Origin: Desulforhabdus amnigena
GTDB lineage: Bacteria; Desulfobacterota; Syntrophobacteria; Syntrophobacterales; Syntrophobacteraceae
Assembly: GCF_027925305.1 (NCBI RefSeq)
Contig: NZ_BSDR01000001.1
Location: 1,329,001-1,393,000, forward strand
DNA length: 64,000 nucleotides
Direction of reading: 5' to 3'
Shown: piece after piece, positions 15,835-64,000 of the stretch
Layout: each line of letters begins with the position of its first letter
How positions within the stretch are numbered: position 1 is the stretch's first letter
The notes under the pieces: generated by a model
Databases searched by the model: none
What the model was told of the DNA's origin: nothing
Seen by the model: only the letters and a program-made list of their open reading frames with translations
Program-made: the position numbers and the translations under genes

Positions 15835-15933
15835 GGAAGCGCCAAGCTCACTGGTGGGGCTCCCGGACTTCAAATCCGGTGTAGGGGCGTGAAGGCGTTC
15901 CTAGGTGGGTTCGATTCCCATGCGCTTCCGCCA
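15835..15933 (+). tRNA. selC: tRNA-Sec, anticodon TCA (selenocysteine)
   Basis: About 99 bases including an encoded CCA end (15931-15933). The acceptor arms GGAAGCGC (15835) and GCGCTTCC close an 8-bp stem; the anticodon arm is CCGGACTTCAAATCCGG with TCA in the loop; a long variable arm follows (GGGGCGTGAAGGCGTTCC region) and the T arm carries GGTTCGATTCC. The over-long acceptor stem, long variable arm and UCA anticodon together identify the selenocysteine tRNA, which decodes UGA in selenoprotein mRNAs. selA, selB and selD are not in the window. Everything downstream for 2 kb is decayed or mobile DNA. Confidence 0.95.
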
Positions 15934-57594: not shown

Positions 57595-57774
57595 ATGAGC
57601 CAAATGGGATGGATCATATTCATAAATTCTGGAGGGCAAGGCCTGCTGACCACCGAAAGCGGTGGCAAGAGCTGGAAAACCCGCTGGCGGGATGCTTCTG
57701 ATTTGAATCAATCCGTCGTAAAAACTATCGTCATCGGTGCCATTGAACCAACAAAGATCAACTGTAATGATTGA
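57595..57774 (+). pseudogene. Possible BNR/Asp-box repeat protein fragment
   Basis: A 59-residue frame with SGGQGLLTTESGGKSWKTRW, one Asp-box-like (BNR) repeat of the type found in Ycf48-like and sialidase-type propellers. No ribosome binding site precedes the ATG. It is far too short to be a functional propeller, so a C-terminal remnant is likely. Confidence 0.35.
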
Positions 57775-57863
57775 CAATTCCTGGGTTGCAGCTTAGCATA
57801 TAGGCTTAAATGGGCTCATGAAGAGCACCGAAAACCTAAAGAACTAGGAGAAGGAGGATTATC

Positions 57864-58124
57864 ATGGAAGGAAAACACGAACACAAGCATCTGCATGCTC
57901 ATACACACGAGCACACGCATTCCCATGAGCATTCCCATGACGGGAAGGTTCACACTCATGAACACACACATTCCCACGCTCATGAGCACCTGCATGAACA
58001 CCTCCATGAGCACACCCATGGCGGCGCTTCCCAGGTACATGATCATGAGCACACGGGGGAACACGGGCCTCACGATCATGACCATCCCGGCCATGAGGCA
58101 GAACCCCATGTTCACGGTCATTAA
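57864..58124 (+). CDS. Histidine-rich protein, likely metal-binding
   Basis: An 86-residue protein with 34 histidines (about 40%), mostly as H-x-H repeats (HEHTHSHEHSHDG, HLHEHLHEHTH), with Glu and Asp among them and no cysteine. There is no signal peptide, so it should be cytoplasmic, resembling the His-rich Ni/Zn-storing proteins such as Hpn in style though not in alignment. GAAGGAGG 7 bases before the ATG gives a strong start. It converges with cooT, whose product binds nickel, which suggests nickel handling. A plain zinc or copper sponge is the alternative. Confidence 0.8.
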   Translation: MEGKHEHKHLHAHTHEHTHSHEHSHDGKVHTHEHTHSHAHEHLHEHLHEHTHGGASQVHDHEHTGEHGPHDHDHPGHEAEPHVHGH

Positions 58125-58159
58125 CATTTAGGTTCTGTACGTCCCGGGGATGACCCGAA

Positions 58160-58187
58160 GAGGCGGATGCATCGATGCATCCGCCTC
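58160..58187. terminator. 28-bp perfect palindrome between the His-rich gene and cooT
   Basis: 13-base arms starting GAGGCGGATGCAT around a central CG, 36 bases after the His-rich stop and 58 bases from the cooT stop. Sitting between convergent genes it is best read as a bidirectional hairpin terminator, although there is no T tract on either side. Confidence 0.6.
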
Positions 58188-58244
58188 GCCATTGCCGGGG
58201 CGAATTCTTCCATGAGAGATCTGTCCCGCTTCTCGTTTGTCACA

Positions 58245-58433
58245 TCAGTCCTGAGTCAGCAAAATTCGATGCTGGACAAGATTCATTTCTTTTATTCTGC
58301 CTTCAACCCATCGCTGTCCACCGAAAATATCCTGAATGTAGACCTTTCCCTCTTCCGGCCTGAGGATATCGACACTTTCCATGATGAGTTCTTGCTGATC
58401 ACCCTTGAGCAGATATGCATTGGCTTCACACAT
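58245..58433 (-). CDS. cooT: CooT-family nickel-binding protein
   Basis: A 62-residue protein starting MCEANAYLL, with the conserved Cys2 used by CooT to bind Ni(II), followed by the family's beta-barrel strands (ELIMESVDILRP, KVYIQDIFGGQRWVEGRIKEMNL, HRILL). CooT delivers nickel for CO dehydrogenase maturation in Rhodospirillum; in other anaerobes it occurs without cooC/cooJ nearby. GAGGGAGGAGACGAA precedes the ATG at 58433, which is preferred to the longer frame. No CO dehydrogenase or hydrogenase gene is in the window. Confidence 0.82.
   Translation of the reverse strand: MCEANAYLLKGDQQELIMESVDILRPEEGKVYIQDIFGGQRWVEGRIKEMNLVQHRILLTQD

Positions 58434-61760: not shown

Positions 61761-64000
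<2,240 letters not shown>

Follow-up and report, generated by a model that had tools for sequence, protein, structure and literature searches.

Anaerobes with nickel hydrogenases, CO dehydrogenase (CODH) and corrinoids must hold scarce nickel and cobalt without poisoning themselves. CooT is a dimer that binds one Ni(II) with nanomolar affinity, and the guanidine-II riboswitch (mini-ykkC) consists of a tandem pair of hairpins whose small loops are identical, located next to the ribosome-binding site. The small, very histidine-rich proteins Hpn and Hpn-2 of Helicobacter are proposed nickel stores; Hpn sequesters nickel, and its binding extends to other divalent metals (PMC4671568). In the nickel-binding CooT dimer, Cys2 is the nickel ligand, and in Rhodospirillum rubrum CooT is encoded together with a histidine-rich nickel-binding partner, CooJ (PMC6006190). 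CODH is present in 85 of 111 proteomes that contain CooT (PMC6006190), hence CODH linkage is not required for CooT membership, and a minority of CODH operons contain CooT (PMC13056359). For such anaerobes, no nickel or cobalt store of the kind described below was found in the literature searched.

The window, i.e., the whole 64,000-nucleotide stretch analyzed here, is part of the closed 4.54-Mb genome of Desulforhabdus amnigena (G000), at 1.33–1.39 Mb. The initial annotation had described an 86-residue protein with 34 histidines (here HIS), a converging gene for CooT and, separating the two, a perfect 28-bp palindrome, all of which we confirm. With the promoter-like site and the Shine-Dalgarno sequence added, the parts are:

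57771–57799, plus strand: promoter-like site of HIS, TTGACA, 17-nt spacer, TAGCAT (consensus scan)
57852–57857, plus strand: Shine-Dalgarno sequence AGGAGG of HIS (from the sequence)
57864–58124, plus strand: HIS, 86-residue histidine-rich protein, 34 His (39.5%)
58160–58187, no strand assigned: perfect 28-bp palindrome, arms 58160–58173 and 58174–58187, 0-nt spacer
58245–58433, minus strand: CooT, clade-B paralogue, 62 residues, stop codon included (PF10133, E = 1.7e-26)

The remark that CODH and hydrogenase genes are not near also holds. The window has no match to PF03063 (CODH/Hcp), the nearest in the genome being more than 2 Mb away, and none of the five genome matches to NiFe hydrogenase (PF00374) falls in the window among those listed (2.64, 3.74 and 3.90 Mb). 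The two prismane-family genes of the genome are located at 3.68 and 3.94 Mb; by open-frame length only, one is Hcp-like (about 550 residues) and the other CODH-like (about 690). As separate observations, the window holds a selenocysteine tRNA gene (15835–15929, plus strand; Rfam tRNA-Sec), the NiFe hydrogenase matches of several relatives contain an in-frame TGA, and adjacent tgt-like and queA-like genes (tRNA queuosine), recognized from translations only, are found at window positions 61761–62879 and 62956–63969 on the minus strand.

HIS has no family match in Pfam, NCBIfam or the PDB, and no signal peptide by inspection. The H-x-H pattern spans residues 5 to 86. AlphaFold predicts a two-stranded β-hairpin (residues 3–25 and 28–50) followed by a disordered tail, with pLDDT about 92 for residues 11–40, a model to be read with caution given the repetitive sequence. 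Histidines alternate on both strands of the modeled hairpin, and their side chains may all point to one face. HIS is probably flexible, with an H-x-H β-hairpin in its N-terminal half.

Comparison across genomes shows that HIS represents a genuine, so far unnamed protein family. Carriers number 14 among 60 relatives (the window's genome is included in the alignment), and because homologues elsewhere share the start codon and 12 of the 14 have a length of exactly 86 residues, the other two having 88, the composition is not a product of chance. The alignment contains 39 invariant columns, with the signature MEG-x-H...HEH-x-H...G-x-H-G and an invariant H-x-H ladder across the homologues. Both CAC and CAT are used in 33 of the 34 histidine columns invariant across 12 HIS genes, and the median pN is 0.17 vs a pS of 0.91, with synonymous change at saturation and few replacements; the family is under strong purifying selection. 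Of the 395 Desulfobacterota genomes sampled, 23, scattered over many families, have a member; the carriers are sulfate-reducing and syntrophic bacteria. Named matches, at least five loci among the matches listed, come from metagenome-assembled genomes of Syntrophobacteraceae, Desulfobacterales, Desulfobacca and unclassified Deltaproteobacteria. HIS was not found in a relative from the genus of the window (G001), although CooT, NiFe hydrogenase and PF03063 matches are present there, which indicates that HIS is dispensable.

Compared with Hpn and Hpn-2, HIS has a regular H-x-H ladder and no Gln-rich tail, belongs to a different phylum, is preceded by a leader RNA (below) and is linked to nickel/cobalt importers rather than to urease. 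Pfam, NCBIfam and the PDB give no link between them, a comparison that covers family libraries only and is limited by low complexity. CooJ has a separate part followed by a C-terminal histidine-rich region, whereas HIS is histidine-rich from end to end and, unlike CooJ, is not in a CODH operon, with no CODH nearby.

No universal neighbor and no neighborhood common to all HIS genes exists. However, 5 of 34 loci (G006, G022, G024, G184 and G373) have CbiM at most 6 kb from HIS, vs an expected 0.13 (P about 2e-7); such linkage counts are lower bounds, as many contigs are short or fragmentary, and the P values are optimistic, as the loci are not all phylogenetically independent. Three families are represented among the loci, so linkage to an importer is seen independently at least three times. 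In G373, HIS ends a co-directional row NikM/CbiM, NikL-like, CbiQ and ATPase; in G022 it is flanked by two CbiM/CbiQ sets, one of them behind a cobalamin riboswitch; and in G184 CbiMQ and an FmdE gene are located directly 3' of HIS. The G025 locus places a TonB receptor-like gene, CbiZ, TonB, Peripla_BP_2, FecCD and an ATPase beside HIS, together with two cobalamin riboswitches, which also occur near HIS in G006 and G373. HIS is thus linked more often to CbiM/NikM-type importers than to CooT. With CbiM/NikM ECF importers and cobalamin-riboswitch loci as the strongest linkage, the metal class would be nickel/cobalt, and the earlier assignment to nickel alone has to be widened; judged from gene context, cobalt appears at least as likely as nickel.

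On this basis we consider it reasonably likely that HIS is a cytosolic buffer or store for nickel and/or cobalt under the control of its own leader. That HIS is instead a general buffer of zinc, or of mixed divalent metals, its closeness to nickel/cobalt import reflecting general metal clusters, appears improbable. H-x-H runs do bind zinc, nickel, cobalt and copper alike, and besides Ni, purified Hpn also binds Zn, Co, Cu and Bi (PMC4671568), but the recurrent metal-related neighbors are CbiM/CbiQ/NikL, corrinoid uptake, CbiZ, CooT and FmdE, and no zinc-specific family is present among about 50 neighbors scanned. It is also unlikely, if a little less so, that HIS acts as a detoxification sponge for excess metal and not as a reserve feeding enzymes: the neighbors are importers, and no exporter (RcnA, CzcD) occurs among those scanned, whereas the own promoter and the lack of a fixed enzyme partner would suit a sponge, as would the protection from nickel overload afforded by Hpn (PMC4671568).

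The window CooT (start codon at 58433, stop at 58245) is like other CooT proteins in its full-length match to PF10133 (92.7 bits, cut-off 27, positions 1–59 of 60) and in having Cys2; the N-terminus is MCEANAY, and MCEA is found in 33 of 33 relatives compared. It differs in belonging to a paralogous group found near importers and DUF3842 rather than CODH. In a tree of 34 CooTs (63 columns) it belongs to a clade of seven, clade B (support 100/99), separate from the other CooT that this genome encodes (at 1016580). Clade-B CooT adjoins DUF3842 in G007, G009, G011, G016 and G025; it faces ECF importer genes in G007, and in G009 it is part of a row TonB, CooT, DUF3842, TonB receptor, binding protein and FecCD-type permease (assigned by eye, not by Pfam). 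DUF3842 is the recurrent regular neighbor of CooT, with 14 CooT genes in the 60 relatives having it within 0.9 kb, mostly at 26–84 bp. The tight DUF3842-CooT gene pair recurs in relatives, e.g., at L147:2180–2599, and no mention of DUF3842 was found in the literature searched. Proximity of CooT to CbiM as a general rule was considered and rejected (1 of 46, not significant).

CooT lies within 1.5 kb of HIS, a distance chosen after the data had been seen, in 3 of 34 loci: the window (136 bp), G025 (1.3 kb) and G301 (1.2 kb), with P = 1e-5 (8e-4 when the window is left out). In G301 one strand carries HIS, a gene for 262 residues without a family, DUF3842 (by eye) and CooT, likely an operon; the 262-residue product (L106:2103–2888, plus strand) has no Pfam or NCBIfam match. 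The two genes are therefore neighbors elsewhere, in G025 and G301, so the refutation named in the initial annotation (genes never adjacent in other genomes) does not apply. At about 90% of HIS loci CooT is distant or absent. Around 26 of the 34 lack both a CbiM gene in the 6-kb range and a CooT gene in the 1.5-kb range, many contigs being short. Of the nickel storage and delivery pair proposed in the initial annotation, the metal class, as nickel/cobalt, and a possible shared pathway are supported, and a dedicated, conserved two-gene pair is not. That HIS and CooT are together in the window by chance, with unrelated pathways, is rather doubtful. It would fit the 31 of 34 HIS loci with no CooT within 1.5 kb and the clade-B CooT genes of G006 and G011, which are apart from HIS. 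Against it stand the proximity in G025 and G301, the latter from another family, where both genes lie within 1.4 kb and the association persists without the window, the likely HIS-CooT operon in G301, and G016, where a different His-rich protein is encoded directly upstream of CooT-DUF3842. This G016 protein (L156:4397–4831, plus strand) has a His-rich N-terminus and a charged C-terminal part.

Upstream of HIS, comparison between genomes revealed a leader RNA with two hairpins, H1 and H2, positioned as follows in the window:

57812–57848, plus strand: tandem-hairpin leader RNA of HIS (covariance model R2, covariation)
57812–57817 and 57823–57828, plus strand: arms of leader hairpin H1, loop AUGAA
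57835–57838 and 57845–57848, plus strand: arms of leader hairpin H2, loop AAGAAC (6 nt)

In eleven species, which represent at least four families, paired hairpins precede HIS, beginning 44–55 nt 5' of the start codon, with loops AUGAA, ACGAA or AAGAA whose starts are 20–22 nt apart. In 10 of the 11 leader-bearing homologues a TTGACA-like box, a 17-nt spacer and a TAnnnn box are found upstream, the latter ending 9–15 nt before H1. Covariation is seen in 11–13 species. For H1 (13 sequences), all six pairs show double changes and 85.9% of cells are paired, a covariation score reached by 0 of 500 shuffles and lost when the register is slid; for H1 and H2 together (11 sequences), 92.6% are paired and eight of nine pairs show double changes. 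The structure was derived from the same sequences, so these percentages are biased in its favor, whereas a held-out match in G411 is independent. That match (25.5 bits) lies 9 nt 5' of a gene for 58 residues that is not in the R2 model and is absent from the protein-search matches; its product starts MEGKHTHKHVHAH, ends EHGPHKHGH and is plainly related to HIS. It constitutes an independent success for the element, and it shows that the protein search misses short HIS members. Near this gene (G411, L182), a product resembling, by eye, a regulator with helix-turn-helix and molybdate/tungstate-binding-type parts is encoded.

The window leader, itself a model member, scores 39.5 bits (E 1.8e-5 per genome). 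HIS leaders score 38–45 bits, and everything else in the 60 relatives and 395 phylum genomes stays at or below about 27 bits; over more than 400 genomes, strong copies of the element occur only before HIS genes, and this speaks against a global regulator. A weak single-hairpin match (26 bits), which may be chance, was noted shortly 5' of a TonB-dependent-receptor-like gene in G031 (L116), a genome without HIS. No Rfam match, guanidine-II included, was obtained at the leader in the window and ten homologous loci, and the leader is a previously uncatalogued RNA element that is not in Rfam. It resembles the guanidine-II riboswitch in its tandem hairpins with the same small loop, but differs in having ANGAA rather than ACGR loops and a downstream gene unrelated to guanidine.

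The single-sequence fold of the leader is unexceptional (z 0.4 to −2.1), and that of the window prefers another structure; the case for the leader therefore rests on comparison, and the window copy is recognizable only in this way. A scan of the window for tandem ANGAA stems gave no match with 5-nt loops, which were the only ones it covered, because the H2 loop of the window has 6 nt. Many HIS genes have a degenerate leader or none. A leader peptide was also considered, as the window and some homologues have an open frame starting ATGAAG. It was rejected: the ATG is missing from G045 and G006, and it is the hairpin, not the reading frame, that is conserved.

In most homologues the 3' arm of H2 overlaps the Shine-Dalgarno sequence; the window is an exception, H2 stopping 3 nt short of it. 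The leader probably controls how much HIS is made, an effect that would be exerted on translation. That the 5' hairpins are unconnected with metal, being plain mRNA stabilizers or sites at which a global RNA-binding protein acts, is a somewhat doubtful alternative. H1 would begin a few nucleotides past the transcription start, as 5' stabilizing stem-loops do, and the ordinary fold energies would be expected of such elements, yet A-N-G-A-A is kept in both loops while the stems covary, and strong matches are confined to HIS genes, with no regulon. More tentatively, the tandem ANGAA leader might represent a cis-regulatory RNA of a new class, sensing nickel or cobalt either directly or by binding HIS (autoregulation).

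No NikR site (GTATGA-N16-TCATAC), for which the initial annotation had suggested a search, was found near the pair, between 57247 and 58827. Window-wide, 19 NikR-like matches with at most three mismatches compare with 15 expected, and NikR control of HIS was rejected, no site exceeding chance.

The palindrome begins 35 nt beyond the HIS stop codon, between the converging genes, and its arm TGCATCCGCCTC is common to the window and G025. Of the 16 homologous genes examined, 12, including most leader-bearing homologues, have a strong hairpin in the equivalent position, within about 100 nt past the stop (z −1.7 to −5.9); a U-run is present in some. A canonical intrinsic terminator was rejected for the window palindrome, as neither strand has a T-run and the terminator scan made no call. 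The palindrome is probably a 3' end or stabilizing hairpin of the HIS mRNA and possibly also serves the facing CooT mRNA.

For the preferred reading of HIS as a nickel and/or cobalt store, we propose the following sequence of events. HIS would be transcribed from its own promoter and its amount probably tuned post-transcriptionally by the two leader hairpins, whose loops are both ANGAA and of which H2 adjoins or overlaps the ribosome-binding site; the mRNA would end in the palindrome hairpin, perhaps shared with the facing CooT mRNA. HIS would then bind nickel or cobalt in the cytosol, taking up or releasing metal brought in by CbiM/NikM-type or TonB/ABC importers. Clade-B CooT, tied genetically to import (DUF3842, TonB and ECF genes) and not to a CODH operon, may be a second handler of the same metal or metals, and could exchange them with HIS directly.

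The analysis defines a protein family, together with the uptake genes linked to it and a probable RNA control element, supported by covariation, that serves a single gene. CooT gains a context outside CODH, with a second clade beside DUF3842 and metal import. Should the leader indeed sense nickel or cobalt, a metal store would set its own synthesis at the mRNA level.
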